From: a virus
DNA length: 27,020 nt
Strand: one strand, 5' to 3'
IMG/VR virus record: IMGVR_UViG_3300044712_000869
Span: 1-27,020 of that record
Shown: one piece after another, positions 2,535 to 25,971 of the stretch
Position numbering within the stretch: the stretch's first letter is position 1
How the letters are laid out: the number at the start of each line of letters is the position of its first letter
The notes under the pieces: generated by a model
Databases searched by the model: none
What the model saw: only the letters and a program-made list of their open reading frames with translations
Told to the model about the DNA's origin: nothing
Program-made: the position numbers and the translations under genes

Positions 2535-2825
2535 TTACTTGACAGCCTCTTTTGTTTCATTTTTAAGAGCAAGCAACTTATAATATGTGTCAGGCATAGC
2601 CCCCTCTTTTATTAACATTTCAGCAGGTTTGCAGTTTCCCCGCTCAAAGCTGGCGTCTTCCGCATATCCCTCAATAGCAGCCAGTACCTCGTCAAGCAAT
2701 TCGACGGGCAATAAAACGATATGTTTCTTTGTTGCAATAGCAATTTTATGTTCAAGTAATTGTTCTTTCAGATGTTTGGCCTCCGCCTGATGTACCTTAT
2801 TTTTCTTTTTGTTCTTGTATGCCAT
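2535..2825 (-). CDS. Hypothetical protein (96 aa)
   Basis: Begins at an ATG at 2825 (MAYKNKKKNKVHQAEAKHLK). The N-terminus is very basic; the rest alternates helical segments (IVLLPVELLDEVLAAIEGYA, then PAEMLIKEGAMPDTYYKLLALK). There are no Cys pairs or membrane segments. It is the first gene after a strong promoter at 2867-2897. Its last codons (GAG GCT GTC AAG TAA, ending AVK) and 3' flank resemble those of the next gene, which also ends AVK. Function unknown. Confidence 0.65.
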   Translation of the reverse strand: MAYKNKKKNKVHQAEAKHLKEQLLEHKIAIATKKHIVLLPVELLDEVLAAIEGYAEDASFERGNCKPAEMLIKEGAMPDTYYKLLALKNETKEAVK

Positions 2826-2866
2826 CGTTCTGTTTTTAACTTACTTTATTACCGATCTATTACCGA

Positions 2867-2897
2867 CAAAGATACGAATCCTTTACTAATAAGCAAA
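2867..2897 (-). promoter_or_regulatory. Strong Bacteroidota-type promoter
   Basis: On the minus strand, TTTG (2897-2894), 19 bp, then TATCTTTG (2874-2867): both boxes and the spacing match the Bacteroidota primary sigma consensus. It lies 42 bp upstream of the ATG at 2825 and would drive the two-gene unit that ends at the terminator at 2004-2030. Confidence 0.8.
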
Positions 2898-2940
2898 CAA
2901 AAAGTAATAAATATTTACAAAATGATGTTAACAGAATTAT

Positions 2941-2964
2941 TCACTTCAAGCATTTTTCAAGCAA
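2941..2964 (+). repeat. Arm-type direct repeat, copy 1
   Basis: Contains TTCAAGCA, three bases (TTT), TTCAAGCA: two 8-bp half sites with an 11-bp period, about one helical turn. Partner of the copy at 3176-3199 in the same orientation. Confidence 0.7.
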
Positions 2965-3078
2965 ATTGAACATAGATGACATGAAATGACACAGCAACTG
3001 TGTAATAATTTCAGCCGGGAATTGGCAACTGATAAAGGGGATGTTGATTTATTGCGGGAGTCAGAAAAAGGGGGTAGG

Positions 3079-3121
3079 CATGATTAAGAGTCATGTGCTC
3101 TACCAGCTGAGCTACGGACCG
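3079..3121 (-). pseudogene. 5' half of a tRNA-Lys(CTT) gene
   Basis: Read on the minus strand: acceptor strand CGGTCCG (3121-3115), TA, D arm GCTC/GAGC with loop AGCTGGTA, A26, anticodon stem CATGA/TCATG with loop CTCTTAA, anticodon CTT (Lys). The sequence then becomes CCTACCCCC and unrelated, with no T arm and no 3' acceptor strand. It cannot be a functional tRNA; it is best explained as the phage copy of the integration core. Confidence 0.8.
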
Positions 3122-3175
3122 GAAAAGCTTTATTTATGGTGCTGTGAGTCGTGTTATTTATTCAGTTAATGTTGG

Positions 3176-3199
3176 TCACTTCAAGCATAGTTCAAGCAA
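3176..3199 (+). repeat. Arm-type direct repeat, copy 2
   Basis: Contains TTCAAGCA, three bases (TAG), TTCAAGCA. It differs from the copy at 2941-2964 only in the spacer and has the same orientation. Confidence 0.7.
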
Positions 3200-3227
3200 T
3201 CGGTGTTTTGTGATGGTTTTTACTGGC

Positions 3228-3725
3228 TCAAATTATCTTTTTCCATTTAACAATTCGATACGCAATATACAATAAAATTATCACAATCACACCAAGTGAA
3301 AAATCCCGGCACCACTTATAGAACTTCGGCACGTACTTGACAGGAACAGGCTTTTCTTTTATCACCTCTTTGATCTGAGTGGTATAGACCTTTATAGTGT
3401 CAGGTTTAATCTGTATCACCGATTGCAGTTTGCCATTCAAGATCCTTATCACTTGGCGGAGCTTGACATTTTCGACAAGGGCCACATCCTGATCGGGACA
3501 GTTAACAGGGACAGTAATATTAATAGTGTCCCCCGGAAGATAAACCGGTATTTCCTTTAGCTTCTCAATGTAAACAGAGTCGATCCCCGGAGGAAACTTT
3601 GCCAGGCATTTCTTTTGCGTGACACACCCGGAGCAGAGGAAGACACCTATTATAAGATAGATCAAGATTAGTAGTATAACCAATTTCTTATACTCATTCG
3701 GCTGATTAGAAGTTAGAGTGCTCAT
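3228..3725 (-). CDS. Candidate unimolecular spanin (u-spanin)
   Basis: The start is the ATG at 3725 (MSTLTSNQPNEYKK), chosen because it shares a base with the TAA of the upstream mini-gene (TAATG); a TTG further upstream is unlikely. The product is 165 aa. Residues about 14-35 form a hydrophobic segment ending in a lipobox-like FLCSGC, followed by a periplasmic-type domain with Val, Ile and Pro-rich beta segments. Residues about 142-160 (FSLGVIVIILLYIAYRIV) form a C-terminal membrane helix with a basic tail. An N-terminal lipoprotein signal plus a C-terminal membrane helix is the plan of u-spanins such as T1 gp11, which fuse inner and outer membranes at lysis. Position at the end of the lysis cassette fits. 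The lipobox has Cys at -3 rather than Leu, so this stays a candidate. Confidence 0.55.
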   Translation of the reverse strand: MSTLTSNQPNEYKKLVILLILIYLIIGVFLCSGCVTQKKCLAKFPPGIDSVYIEKLKEIPVYLPGDTINITVPVNCPDQDVALVENVKLRQVIRILNGKLQSVIQIKPDTIKVYTTQIKEVIKEKPVPVKYVPKFYKWCRDFSLGVIVIILLYIAYRIVKWKKII

Positions 3726-3877
3726 TAGTTTGGTTTTGGGTAAAACATTGTTATTGTCTCGTATGCCTCCGCAGCACAATCAGTGCAGATAAAATCATCT
3801 TCATCCTCAATCAACTTGACCCATTCTTCGATTTCTATCTCACTGATCGCACCGCAGCAGGAGCATTGAGCTTTCAT
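3725..3877 (-). CDS. Cys-pair mini-protein (50 aa)
   Basis: A frame of 50 codons from ATG at 3877 to TAA at 3727-3725. It overlaps the upstream phosphoesterase by 4 bp (ATGA) and the downstream spanin candidate by 1 bp (TAATG), so it is almost certainly translated by coupling. MKAQCSCCGAISEIEIEEWV starts with Cys residues at 5, 7 and 8, and CTDC lies at 31-34, which could form one zinc site. The middle is acidic. No known family recognised. It sits inside the lysis cassette; role unknown. Confidence 0.7.
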   Translation of the reverse strand: MKAQCSCCGAISEIEIEEWVKLIEDEDDFICTDCAAEAYETITMFYPKPN

Positions 3878-4734
3878 ATCAGAGCCATTATATCAGTTAT
3901 TACCCGGTCATGCTTCTCTTCCCTGTCCCTATGGAAAGATATTTGAAGATGAAGAGATCCCAGGTCTGAAGGTCGAAGTAACCGCCCGACAACATAACTC
4001 GGCTCATTATCAACATACCCTTTCATGTAACTTCCCGACCTGCAAAGCATCTGCCTTTTTTGCTTTAACTCCCCTTCAATGCTGGGCAGTAATACATCTT
4101 TAGGCCATGCGCCCCGCTCGTGATCATGCGCCATGCAATAAACATCCGCTGCCGGGAAGATGCGGCGCAGGTCGTCAACCTGGTTAATAGTGTTCCCAGC
4201 CGTCTTACCGCCTGCCCTCCCATGACAGAGAACGAAGTTAATAGACTGATTAGTTCCGGATTTACTTCCTTCAAACTCGAAAGCAATAGTATAATGACAT
4301 AGCCAGCCGAGTGATTCAGTGCCGAGCCTTTCAGCTAGGTCATCGGTTGAGTTCTTTCCATTACGGAAAAGCCACGAGTGATTACCTTCGATAAATCCCA
4401 GCACGTGACCCCGCATAAAAGAGATCTCAGCAGCGAAAGCCCTGTTATCTGATTCTGCCAGGCGGTCGAGCTTGTCAATAGTCGTGTCATGCAGTTCGTT
4501 GTTGCGGAGCTTTTTCTTCTCGCTGGTGCTGGCAAAGTCATGATAATCACCCATACCAAAGAAATATGTTTCATGTTCATCCATTGACTTCTTTGCCTTC
4601 TGTAAAAACCATTTCCAGCGTTCAACGTCGCAGTTAGGTGTGTCTCTGTGAACATCACCAAAGAACCAGAAATTTATCGGTTCGTTAAGCCTTGCCTTTA
4701 ATTTAAGGTATCTAGTTTTGTAAATGTAGTCCAT
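3874..4734 (-). CDS. Calcineurin-like metallophosphoesterase
   Basis: The start is ATG at 4734, which overlaps the TGA of the upstream holin-like gene (TGATG); product 286 aa. The metal-binding motifs of the calcineurin-like superfamily are all present in order: GDVH (D27, H29), GMGDYHD (D63), GNHSW (N118, H119), CHGRAGG (H171) and AHDHERG (H203, H205). A dinuclear metal-dependent phosphodiesterase or phosphatase activity is therefore likely. The substrate cannot be told; phage members of this fold act on nucleic acids, nucleotides or phosphoproteins. Its place between holin-like and spanin-like genes is unusual. No signal peptide, so probably cytoplasmic. Confidence 0.85.
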   Translation of the reverse strand: MDYIYKTRYLKLKARLNEPINFWFFGDVHRDTPNCDVERWKWFLQKAKKSMDEHETYFFGMGDYHDFASTSEKKKLRNNELHDTTIDKLDRLAESDNRAFAAEISFMRGHVLGFIEGNHSWLFRNGKNSTDDLAERLGTESLGWLCHYTIAFEFEGSKSGTNQSINFVLCHGRAGGKTAGNTINQVDDLRRIFPAADVYCMAHDHERGAWPKDVLLPSIEGELKQKRQMLCRSGSYMKGYVDNEPSYVVGRLLRPSDLGSLHLQISFHRDREEKHDRVITDIMALI

Positions 4735-4904
4735 CACTCAGGTTTTGGTTCAACTTTACCCTTATCAAACCACTGCTTGCCTAATACAAGCGCAGCTATA
4801 AAGGGGACGGCAAACATGAAAGAATCTTTGCCGAGATACACGGCGCATCCCAGCATGAGGAAGGCCATAAGTTTTGATGCTGTAAAAGTGATTGCGAATT
4901 TCAT
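4734..4904 (-). CDS. Holin-like small membrane protein (56 aa)
   Basis: Frame from ATG at 4904 to the TGA that overlaps the phosphoesterase start. Residues about 8-25 (TASKLMAFLMLGCAVYLG) and 29-43 (FMFAVPFIAALVLGK) are two hydrophobic segments separated by a short KDS turn, followed by a charged tail (KGKVEPKPE). Size, two membrane segments, charged C-terminus and position directly after the endolysin gene fit a small class II-type holin. The sequence does not match a family I recognise, so holin is inferred from context. Confidence 0.55.
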   Translation of the reverse strand: MKFAITFTASKLMAFLMLGCAVYLGKDSFMFAVPFIAALVLGKQWFDKGKVEPKPE

Positions 4905-4915
4905 AGCTATTGGTT

Positions 4916-5365
4916 TTAAATTTCTCTTATGTCAAGCAACCCGAAAGTATCAGACTCTTTCGGGAAGCCGTTAACACCTACTTTATTTGATTGATTACCT
5001 CCGAGGGTATAGATAGTCTTTTTATCCTCCGAAAGTCCCGCAAACAAGCCGACATGACCCTCCCATGAAGTTCTTTTGTTGCGCCAGAAGATTACAACGT
5101 GACCGATCTTTGCATAGGGCAAAATAATCTGTTTACCTAACCTTGCCCATGACCGGGCGTTGAGCTTACCAGTATAGGGAAGGCCGATCCTTTTGCAAGT
5201 GATGTTCATGAGCAGTGAACACCACGCCGTCTCATCATCCTGCACCTCCGGGAAGCCAAGTTCTTTAAACCATCCAACGATGATAGGATTATCAATCTCT
5301 CCCGGTATTTCGGAAAGGCCGTAATACTTCATCATCTCAAGCCACATTAATTCCCTGTTTTCCAT
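4916..5365 (-). CDS. Endolysin, TIGR02594-like NlpC/P60-CHAP peptidase
   Basis: Start ATG at 5365; 149 aa. DDETAWCSLLMN places the likely catalytic Cys at 49, WEGHVGLFAG the His at 104, and LGGNQSNKVG the polar residue N124. This Cys, His, Asn order and the phrases WCS..N and HVG..G..GGNQ are typical of the TIGR02594 group of phage and prophage cell-wall peptidases related to CHAP and NlpC/P60. It probably cleaves peptide bonds of peptidoglycan. There is no signal peptide, so release would depend on a holin; the holin-like gene follows 11 bp downstream. Confidence 0.8.
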   Translation of the reverse strand: MENRELMWLEMMKYYGLSEIPGEIDNPIIVGWFKELGFPEVQDDETAWCSLLMNITCKRIGLPYTGKLNARSWARLGKQIILPYAKIGHVVIFWRNKRTSWEGHVGLFAGLSEDKKTIYTLGGNQSNKVGVNGFPKESDTFGLLDIREI

Positions 5366-9629: not shown

Positions 9630-10493
9630 TTATTCAATGTATATGTACCCCCCGAAAATTGTTGTCGCTGGATTTGTTGCCCATGTCGGGTTAACCCCTT
9701 TTATCTCTATGTAATCACCTGCCGCAACTGCAATACTTAATGAGGTATTTGAGAATACCCGTTCATTAGCTGCCGCCCCGACGGTTGCGATAAGCGTGTC
9801 GGCTGAATTGTTTTTCCTTACATACAGGCTCCAATTCTCATTTGTCCCTGCCGTCCCTGAATAGCAATAGATCTCTGCTATCTTTATCGTCCCTGCCTTG
9901 CGAACATAGATCTTACTTGTGCCGGCTGCTGTTACCGGTGCTTTCGGAAGCGTCCCGAAATATATTGTCTGAGCATCGACAGGGGAGGATGTAAGTGCCT
10001 GCACGTTTATTGCGTAACCTGTATATGCGTGAGAGTGGGTTGTAATTACCCCGGTGAGCTTTGCTTCAATTTCAGATTGCAGAATATCGCTGTTTTTCTG
10101 TGCGGTGCTTGGCGCATGAGTCGAGGTTACATGAGTTTGAATATTGCTGTTTGCCGGTTCGTAAACTCCTGTGTGTGTATGATCAGACTCGGCCTTCCCA
10201 TTCCATGTGCTTTTCTCAGTGTCTGAAACGAATCTATTTGAAGCGTCCTGAGTGATCACAGAGGCGGAATGATTAGCAGGGTGAGTGTAGTTATTTGCAC
10301 CCGCTTCGATTCCGGCAAGTTTCAAGGCATCAGCATCAGGGTATAATGCTTTGCCTGTCTCCTTGTCAACCTTGCTTGTTACGTCAACCGGATGAGCCAA
10401 CAGGTAAGAAGAGACAGCCGAAGCAATGACCTCCGGTGATGCCCCGGCTGCTGCTATCTTTGATTTGATATATTTTGCCTCGTTGTCTCTCAT
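9630..10493 (-). CDS. Tail fibre protein
   Basis: Start ATG at 10493 overlaps the upstream stop (ATGA); 287 aa. KLAGIEAGANNYTHPANH, ESDHTHTGVYEPANSNIQTH and ITTHSHAYTGY are His-rich repeats typical of trimeric phage tail-fibre shafts, where His residues can bind metal ions along the fibre axis. The C-terminal 130 residues (AGTIKIAEIYCYSGTAGTNE onward) form a beta-sandwich-like tip. Follows the large tail-tip protein, so it is probably attached there and helps in adsorption. Confidence 0.75.
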   Translation of the reverse strand: MRDNEAKYIKSKIAAAGASPEVIASAVSSYLLAHPVDVTSKVDKETGKALYPDADALKLAGIEAGANNYTHPANHSASVITQDASNRFVSDTEKSTWNGKAESDHTHTGVYEPANSNIQTHVTSTHAPSTAQKNSDILQSEIEAKLTGVITTHSHAYTGYAINVQALTSSPVDAQTIYFGTLPKAPVTAAGTSKIYVRKAGTIKIAEIYCYSGTAGTNENWSLYVRKNNSADTLIATVGAAANERVFSNTSLSIAVAAGDYIEIKGVNPTWATNPATTIFGGYIYIE

Positions 10494-13417
10494 GTTATCG
10501 TAAATCTGTTGCTTTCAAGGGTGGGGGAGCTTGTCTTGCCGATCATCACATAATACTGCGTCCCTGTCTCATTGGGGATGTCAACTGATATGCTGTAATT
10601 GGCTGTCCCGCTTGAAATGCTCACCGTTTCGTTTCCAGAGCTTCTTACCAAATCTGAACTGTTGCGAACCTGCCAATAAACTTCTTGACTAACTGCAGCG
10701 GGGGAGGTTGCGCTAAATGATACACTGATAGTGGTATTATGAACAGCCCCGCTTATATTTAAGATGCTATTAATCAGCGCAATGTCATTGTCATAAAATC
10801 CCATAGCTCCTGCCGTGTCGGATGACCAGGCACTATTATCAGCTATTATATTAATTGCGGTCCCGTCAGCGTAATGCTCACAGCAAAAATTGGTTGTTAT
10901 AATTACAAGACTGCCTATCTTGACTGAATGGTAAACATGACCGTCGTAATCAGTCATATCGGCAAGTGTGTCATCATCTTTAATCATCCTCACAGGAAGA
11001 CCGTTCTTTTTATCCCCGAAGGAAATAGAGGCACCCGCATCATTATAGTTAAGCGATAATTCATAAGCATTTGGCCCTATTGCATCCGACGTCCATATAT
11101 CCCCTATTGCCTTGCGAGAGCCAAATGTTCCAATAGTACCAGACCGAAAACCCACACCCCTGCAATTTAATCCGCTTGAATTATCAGCTCCCGTGTTCGG
11201 GCTGGTCCAAAACTCCGCACTCGTATCTTTTAAGTGACCACCTGCAACAGAGGCACCACCAAGTGAGTCAATGATATCTTCCCAATTTGCTTTTGTCGCA
11301 ACGTGCCATCCTGCGGGTGCGAGTCCATGAGCATTAACAAGCGCAGCATAATTGTAATATGCACCCCAGCCACTACCCGGAAAACTTTCAGGATCGGAAG
11401 GGTCGCCCGGATCTTCTCCCGGAGTGCCACCGATGGCAAACACTTCAGCTAAATCGATTTCCCATTTACGGAAGCGAACAGAGAAAGAACCCCGATTGAA
11501 TACAAACCGCCTGTTATTGCCTGAATATTGATTAAGATCATCCTGGAAGTGGCCGAGGATATTTACAGCACTCGCCCCGGTGCCATTATCGATTATTGGC
11601 ATCTGAATCATCTGTTTGGGACGGGAATATTCCGAGGCAATTTCATCACACAGCAACTGCCGGATAGGTAATGCCTCTGCGCCTGTTTTCGTTGACCAGG
11701 ATGAAGTAATCCCATGAGTCATGCCTACATAGTCGTAAGACCCCAAAGCCCCGGCAAACTGCTCTAAAACATTATCTATCCCAACATCCTCAACGTCCCC
11801 CAGGATGTAATCATATTCCAGCTCCTGCCCGTTAATAGCGTTGCTTTTGGTGTAAGTATTTTCAGTTATCTCTTCCTGATCTTTGATAGTCTTAACAGGA
11901 TAGTATTTCTTTTTCAGACTTACATTCCACTCACCAAATGAACCGGAAAACCTTATGCGCTGAAAGAACTTGCGCTTTTTGGTTTTCATGACAATGGTGT
12001 CATTGGTGTCATAGAAGCGTATATTCTTTATCCCCCCGTAAACACCTGCGACAGCCTGTATCTGGAAGATCTTTATTGTGTAGGGACCTGCAGCGGTCAG
12101 TCCTATTAGCCGTCTTTCATAAGTATTCCATCCGGTCTTGCCAAGTGGCAACCCAGCATCAGCAATAACAATATAACTGACCGAGGCCGTCCAATCAACA
12201 TGGTAATCATCAACTTCATACAGGTAATTGCCTGCTGAGTCTGTTATCTGAATGATAAGATTGGCCGGGTCGCCTGCTGTATCTGTATTGTAAAACAGAT
12301 AGTCAAAGGATAATACAAGCACATCTCCAGCCGAGGCAATACCAAAAAGCCCGAAGTCCTGGTAAACATAATCATCATTTACCGGGTCAGCATCAGCAGT
12401 AAGCACCATCCCATCAACCTCTCCGGGGATTAGATCAGCAATATGGTTAAGCCCCCATATTCCTGAACGTGTCCACGAATCATAAGTGAAATCAGGATCT
12501 CCTTTATAGGTATCTGAATTTATTTCCCAATTGTCAATCCATGACTGCTTATTTCCATAATCCTGAGAGGCTGTTACTTTCGAGGCCGGGCGAATAATCA
12601 TAAGATCACCACCGGGAACCTGCAATAAGTTTGATGAGCGTGTACCCCGCTTAATGAATTGCGCCGTGCTGTAAGTCGTAGCCGACCATGTACCCGGATC
12701 GGTGAACCACCTCCCGTAAACAGTGAGTTCAGCAAGCTCAACGGGCCGGTAAATTCTGAAAGCACCGTCCTTGTGAATGATTCGGGCATTAAACCGCGAC
12801 AGCACCCGGTAAAGAACCTCATCACAGTACATATCCCGGAACAGATCAGCATCGATTGTTGTCTGCACAAAGGGACTATCTAAATCGGTTGTATAATGCG
12901 TTACATCATAAAGGTTGACATACTCGTAAAAGTTTGTCACGTTAATTTTACTAAGCACTCCAAACAGTATTTCACTAGCTTGCACCCGCCCAGTGTAATA
13001 AGTTGTTTCGTTATACATACCCTGTTTATCCTTCAACAATCCCAGACCACACCAGGCGTTTATTGTCACGTCATACGGCGTGTATTCGTAAGGCTCCCCG
13101 TACTGACCGGTAATGATGTACCCTTGCCAATAAAGTGATCCATTCTGATAAACAGATACACGGAAATGAAGGTCGTCAACGGAATAAAGATCAGCCAGGG
13201 CAAAATCTGTGAGTGACTTGACTGTTATGCTACAGGTCGAAGGCTGAAGGGGATCAAAAATATCATCAGACCCGTTCTCCCATTGGATGTTGATAGGGTC
13301 AGAACTGCCGACAAGATCAATGATACTCCCCCCGAAGCCATCCTCTTCAATGTCAACGGACCAGTCGTACTCGTGAAAGTCTTTGATCTCAAGGCGATAT
13401 TTTGTAGCCCATGCCAT
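10490..13417 (-). CDS. Tail-tip/baseplate protein with permuted FISUMP domain
   Basis: Start ATG at 13417 overlaps the tape-measure stop (TGATG); 975 aa. Residues about 1-300 resemble the hub or Dit/Tal-like proteins that follow tape measures. The middle has a jelly-roll-like segment. Residues about 690-812 hold the C-terminal half of a FISUMP domain (GWGAYYNYAALV, APAGWHVATKANWEDII, TSPNTGADNSSGLNCRG, NGLPVRMIKD). Residues about 815-875 hold the half that normally comes first (TDYDGHVYHSVKIG, YADGTAI, AWSSDTAGAMGFYDND). The halves are thus swapped. The last 90 residues look like an Ig or fibronectin-like domain. Probable role: tail tip and surface binding. Confidence 0.75.
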   Translation of the reverse strand: MAWATKYRLEIKDFHEYDWSVDIEEDGFGGSIIDLVGSSDPINIQWENGSDDIFDPLQPSTCSITVKSLTDFALADLYSVDDLHFRVSVYQNGSLYWQGYIITGQYGEPYEYTPYDVTINAWCGLGLLKDKQGMYNETTYYTGRVQASEILFGVLSKINVTNFYEYVNLYDVTHYTTDLDSPFVQTTIDADLFRDMYCDEVLYRVLSRFNARIIHKDGAFRIYRPVELAELTVYGRWFTDPGTWSATTYSTAQFIKRGTRSSNLLQVPGGDLMIIRPASKVTASQDYGNKQSWIDNWEINSDTYKGDPDFTYDSWTRSGIWGLNHIADLIPGEVDGMVLTADADPVNDDYVYQDFGLFGIASAGDVLVLSFDYLFYNTDTAGDPANLIIQITDSAGNYLYEVDDYHVDWTASVSYIVIADAGLPLGKTGWNTYERRLIGLTAAGPYTIKIFQIQAVAGVYGGIKNIRFYDTNDTIVMKTKKRKFFQRIRFSGSFGEWNVSLKKKYYPVKTIKDQEEITENTYTKSNAINGQELEYDYILGDVEDVGIDNVLEQFAGALGSYDYVGMTHGITSSWSTKTGAEALPIRQLLCDEIASEYSRPKQMIQMPIIDNGTGASAVNILGHFQDDLNQYSGNNRRFVFNRGSFSVRFRKWEIDLAEVFAIGGTPGEDPGDPSDPESFPGSGWGAYYNYAALVNAHGLAPAGWHVATKANWEDIIDSLGGASVAGGHLKDTSAEFWTSPNTGADNSSGLNCRGVGFRSGTIGTFGSRKAIGDIWTSDAIGPNAYELSLNYNDAGASISFGDKKNGLPVRMIKDDDTLADMTDYDGHVYHSVKIGSLVIITTNFCCEHYADGTAINIIADNSAWSSDTAGAMGFYDNDIALINSILNISGAVHNTTISVSFSATSPAAVSQEVYWQVRNSSDLVRSSGNETVSISSGTANYSISVDIPNETGTQYYVMIGKTSSPTLESNRFTIT

Positions 13418-25845: not shown

Positions 25846-25898
25846 ACAGGGATTAGTTTTAAAGGGCCGTTACTTTTTTCATCTTTCGTTTGGCCTTG

Positions 25899-25971
25899 AG
25901 CCTCCAGCAGGGAATGATCCCGCGACATTCCGCTTACAGGGCGGATGCTCTACCAACTGAGCTATGGAGGC
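25899..25971 (-). tRNA. tRNA-Thr(TGT), unusual loops
   Basis: Complete cloverleaf on the minus strand, 73 nt: acceptor GCCTCCA/TGGAGGC (7 bp), TA, D arm GCTC/GAGC with AGTTGGTA, anticodon stem TCCGC/GCGGA, variable ATGTC, T stem GCGGG/CCTGC (one G-T), discriminator T, no encoded CCA. The anticodon loop CCTGTAA gives TGT (Thr, ACA codon), but position 33 is C instead of the near-universal T. The T loop ATCATTC lacks T54 and A58. The stems are intact, so the gene is probably maintained, but it may be a diverging phage tRNA. Confidence 0.8.

Follow-up and report, generated by a model that had tools for sequence, protein, structure and literature searches.

A probable attP built on the 5′ half of a tRNA-Lys(CTT) gene in an uncultured Bacteroidota phage

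We found a site in the genome of an uncultured phage that is very probably the attP of a temperate Bacteroidota siphophage, targeting the host tRNA-Lys(CTT) gene through a tyrosine recombinase encoded beyond the available fragment. The whole virus record, 27,020 bp, was analysed and is termed the window here. The late genes (terminase subunits, portal, capsid, tail and lysis) lie on the minus strand, and the site sits in an intergenic gap of 402 bp (2826-3227) that separates the last gene on the lysis side from another minus-strand operon. Just upstream of the tRNA half is the last gene of the late/lysis cluster (3228-3779, minus strand), whose 183-aa product is lipoprotein-like with a hydrophobic tail; it had no match in Pfam or PHROG and is possibly spanin-like. 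On the other side, the operon begins with a called gene for an unknown 96-aa product (2535-2825, minus strand). This intergenic placement between two phage operons favors an attP. Because phage genes flank the site on either side and neither arm is missing, it appears to be an intact attP and not a prophage end, as the first-pass annotation had held.

The core of the site is a block of 43 bp (3079-3121, minus strand) corresponding to bases 1-43 of a tRNA-Lys(CTT) gene; base 1, at 3121, is a C, and the acceptor strand CGGTCCG pairs with CGGACCG. When the core pattern was scanned across 84,980 bacterial and archaeal genomes, a single match was returned, in contig JAFGKY010000013.1 (L014) of a Bacteroidales metagenome-assembled genome (MAG). 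There, ARAGORN calls a complete tRNA-Lys with anticodon CTT (L014:7091-7164), whose first 43 nt (L014:7091-7133) are identical to the window block at all 43 positions, bearing out the prediction that such a Bacteroidota gene would be found. In related genomes this tRNA mostly has G at base 28, where the window and L014 have A, and the close matches that were inspected (about 91% identity or more) were complete tRNA-Lys genes. The identity between window and L014 ends sharply, at tRNA base 1 on one side and on the other with the final base of the anticodon stem (base 43); and a comparison of the window's first 19 kb with 23 genomes of the L014 family gave matches on the tRNA segment only. The block is therefore a host-derived piece of defined length within phage DNA. 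The core pattern had no match in viral contigs. The block is bounded by the anticodon stem as in the anticodon-loop class of sites.

ARAGORN calls no complete tRNA at 3079-3121, as expected for a half gene. Joining phage bases 1-43 in silico to the 3′ part of the host gene yields exactly the host tRNA, which ARAGORN does call, while it calls no tRNA at the opposite junction. The element thus carries the 5′ part of the tRNA gene and not the 3′ part, the reversed polarity that had been proposed from the first reading. One other tRNA gene, for tRNA-Thr(TGT), lies at 25898-25971 upstream of the terminase genes and is very unlike the tRNA-Thr(TGT) of the candidate host; ARAGORN found no further phage tRNAs in the window.

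Two arm-type direct repeats of 24 bp flank the core, spaced 235 bp apart and identical at 22 of 24 positions, as first described. The first (2941-2964, plus strand) is on the early-operon side and has the bipartite form TTCAAGCA-N3-TTCAAGCA with an 11-bp period; the second (3176-3199, plus strand) is on the lysis-gene side. The exact pattern TTCAAGCA-N3-TTCAAGCA occurs at these two places only in the 27-kb window, and shuffled sequence gave a mean of 0.51 matches to it with three mismatches allowed. None of 100 Markov-simulated windows of the same dinucleotide make-up contained two direct copies that matched at 22 or more of 24 positions and lay no more than 500 bp apart; the paired arm repeats are not expected by chance. 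In viral contigs the arm pattern gave three chance matches, none of them with a tRNA.

Within the core, the anticodon arm (bases 27-43; 3079-3095, minus strand) reads CATGA-CTCTTAA-TCATG, a perfect 5-bp dyad flanking the 7-nt anticodon loop at 3084-3090. Such core-site and overlap geometry is usual for tyrosine recombinases acting in tRNA genes (PMC8371274), and the dyad is accordingly proposed to form core-type integrase sites around a 7-bp overlap (3084-3090), with crossover predicted in the overlap. The recombinase would bind the core sites in the dyad and exchange strands across the 7-bp loop, while its N-terminal domain would grip the bipartite direct repeats on either side; the DNA would probably bend in the spacers of about 55 and 114 bp. 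With bases 1-43 on the phage, integration would leave the host promoter with a 5′-half stump at one prophage end, and at the other would join the phage 5′ half to the host 3′ half, restoring the tRNA sequence beside the phage lysis genes.

The same layout was found in two other phages. A broader tRNA-Lys(CTT) 5′ pattern matched at least 119 viral stretches, and among the 80 examined there were 84 matches: 79 complete tRNAs, one at a contig edge, two with degenerate 3′ halves and two true 5′ halves. The loci L104 and L151 were dropped as 5′-half cases since a degenerate 3′ half follows, and the GenBank phage matches that were inspected carried complete tRNAs, not 5′ halves. In the first true case, L120, the half gene (about 3933-3889, minus strand) ends in the anticodon stem, is flanked by a 19-bp repeat (at 3766 and 3987, 221 bp apart), and has an integrase gene alongside (3687-2710). 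In the second, L118 (site at 4550-4825), the half gene (about 4700-4742, plus strand) has bipartite repeats of the form TGGGGCCAG-N3-TGGGGCCAG with a 12-bp period on both sides (about 4553 and about 4798), again beside an integrase gene (4609-3317). Since both show it next to an integrase, the att anatomy of the window is common to unrelated integrase-bearing phages; together with the host tRNA match, these contigs support the original suggestion of an attP-like site combining a tRNA core with arm sites. Upstream of the half gene, L120 also has a perfect TTGACA-N17-TATAAT promoter on the same strand as the downstream integrase gene (L120:3889-4085). Integration of L120 would part the integrase from this promoter and hand the promoter to the rebuilt tRNA, resembling pTN3 elements, whose rebuilt tRNA uses the integrase promoter (PMC8371274).

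An attP usually adjoins the integrase gene. No integrase domain (PF00589) was found in the 27-kb window, where the first-pass annotation had suggested looking for one. The window begins with an exact 141-bp tandem repeat (1-268) inside a coiled-coil gene, and tandem repeats of this kind are typical assembly breaks; for this reason the record is probably a fragment, which would explain the missing neighbor gene, and the integrase gene may lie beyond the window. Terminase relatives were found at nine viral loci (32-79% identical, mostly short contigs), and none of these loci had an integrase domain. The proteins encoded at 3874-4737 and 2016-2501, the tail protein (10490-13417) and the lysozyme-like protein (4916-5365) had no relatives in viral contigs.

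Nor did we find the prophages that had been expected to end at this tRNA with these repeats. The core-plus-arm pattern, a tRNA-Lys with an arm repeat at similar distance, was absent from the 84,980 genomes, and the 23 genomes of the L014 family contained no integrated copy; the phage may be unsampled. A search of 393 genomes of the order at E 1e-60 likewise turned up nothing related to the terminase, and the 23 family genomes contained nothing related to the phage capsid protein. With the exact core in a single genome and no capsid relative in its family, the identity of the host is tentative. Contigs L025 and L024, from two genomes of the candidate host's family, both stop immediately after tRNA-Lys(CTT); G018, one of the two genomes, carries another tRNA-Lys(CTT) copy whose upstream region is similar (L043). 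These features may point to a hot spot for insertion at the tRNA 3′ end.

The effect of integration on tRNA expression was considered from promoter sequences. The six stand-alone host tRNA-Lys genes that were scored have a TAnnTTTG motif, the Bacteroidota consensus, starting 14-31 nt upstream, while another copy (L026) directly follows tRNA-Gly in a cluster. In the 250 nt upstream of the phage half gene, a consensus scan gave promoter-like matches that at best were no better than those in shuffled sequence, although an unusual promoter is possible. A full-consensus Bacteroidota-type promoter, TTTG-N19-TATCTTTG, is present in the window (2867-2897, minus strand); it belongs to the operon after attP and does not lie upstream of the half gene. 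As the first reading supposed, the rebuilt gene would follow phage DNA, but the predicted phage-supplied promoter is not recognizable there, so the restored tRNA is only putatively functional. The host MAG also has tRNA-Lys(TTT), which should read both lysine codons by wobble; poor expression of tRNA-Lys(CTT) may for that reason be tolerated. It is conceivable, if rather unlikely, that integration amounts to a promoter exchange, in which tRNA-Lys(CTT) is moved to a promoter-poor phage flank, with tRNA-Lys(TTT) reading AAG, and the host promoter drives the operon at 2825-1. If so, a host tRNA promoter would be pointed into that phage operon, giving it prophage-specific expression.

The lack of an integrase gene in 27 kb, the lack of a recognizable promoter for the restored tRNA, and the failure to find integrated relatives are also what would be seen if the site were a relic, used in past integration by the phage or an ancestor whose integrase has since been lost or replaced. 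We consider this improbable: the record is an incomplete fragment, and without selection neither the 43/43 match to a live host tRNA nor the near-perfect arm repeats would have lasted. Slightly less probable still is an assembly chimera, in which the assembly graph linked the two ends of an integrated prophage across their shared 43-bp repeat; the contig is indeed metagenomic, and the same 43 bp are expected at both ends of a prophage. Such a join, however, would recreate the true attP and leave the reading of the site unchanged; it would only weaken the claim that a free molecule was sequenced. Least probable of all, to a degree that we regard as very slight, is a captured host tRNA fragment with no tie to integration that acts, for instance, as a decoy RNA or a regulator. 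The half gene is on the same strand as the neighboring genes and could be transcribed by read-through, yet upstream promoter matches do not exceed chance, the predicted fold is no more stable than those of shuffles (z -0.33), and the repeats and exact stop at the anticodon stem fit att anatomy, as in L118 and L120.

Taken as an attP, the site is real and uncommon, a further and phage-borne Bacteroidota example of a principle already reported. Compared with the 3′ part of tRNA genes, the 5′ part is reported to be a considerably less frequent site of recombination (Zhao and Williams, 2002, as cited in PMC6563490), and integration with a 5′ half is seldom met in bacteria (PMC8371274). In the case of Zhao and Williams (2002), as cited in PMC6563490, recombination of the element likewise involves the 5′ part of the tRNA gene, whose upstream region the element supplies; the present case differs in being a Bacteroidota phage at tRNA-Lys(CTT). 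The pTN3-like integrases of Thermococcales also have a tRNA 5′ half as att and restore an uninterrupted tRNA with upstream DNA from the element (PMC8371274). These are archaeal suicidal integrases, split upon integration, that place the restored tRNA on the integrase promoter (PMC8371274), whereas the window attP is intergenic, with no integrase seen and no recognizable upstream promoter. With conventional anticodon-loop attP sites, as Williams (2002) is cited in PMC8371274 and PMC10865867, the window site shares an identity block of roughly 40 bp that extends to the anticodon arm, a dyad with 7-bp loop, and arm repeats; the conventional phage attP carries the 3′ half, so that the host promoter is kept, and the window carries the 5′ half. 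In the tRNA-dependent lysogeny of mycobacteriophages the target is also a tRNA-Lys gene, whose expression is possibly lost, but the shared core spans some 10 bp, integration does not rebuild the tRNA, and the phage encodes a tRNA-Lys itself (PMC10865867). The 43-bp core of the window, in contrast, rebuilds the tRNA sequence, and the sole phage tRNA found is tRNA-Thr.

Bacteroidota phages very likely use reversed-polarity tRNA integration. Looking simply for a 5′-half-only tRNA between direct repeats, in the 80 viral contigs that were examined, yielded two further examples. At such sites integration replaces the DNA upstream of the tRNA and would thereby be tied directly to transcription at both junctions. 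For a phage otherwise unplaced, the site predicts both a tRNA target and a host group.
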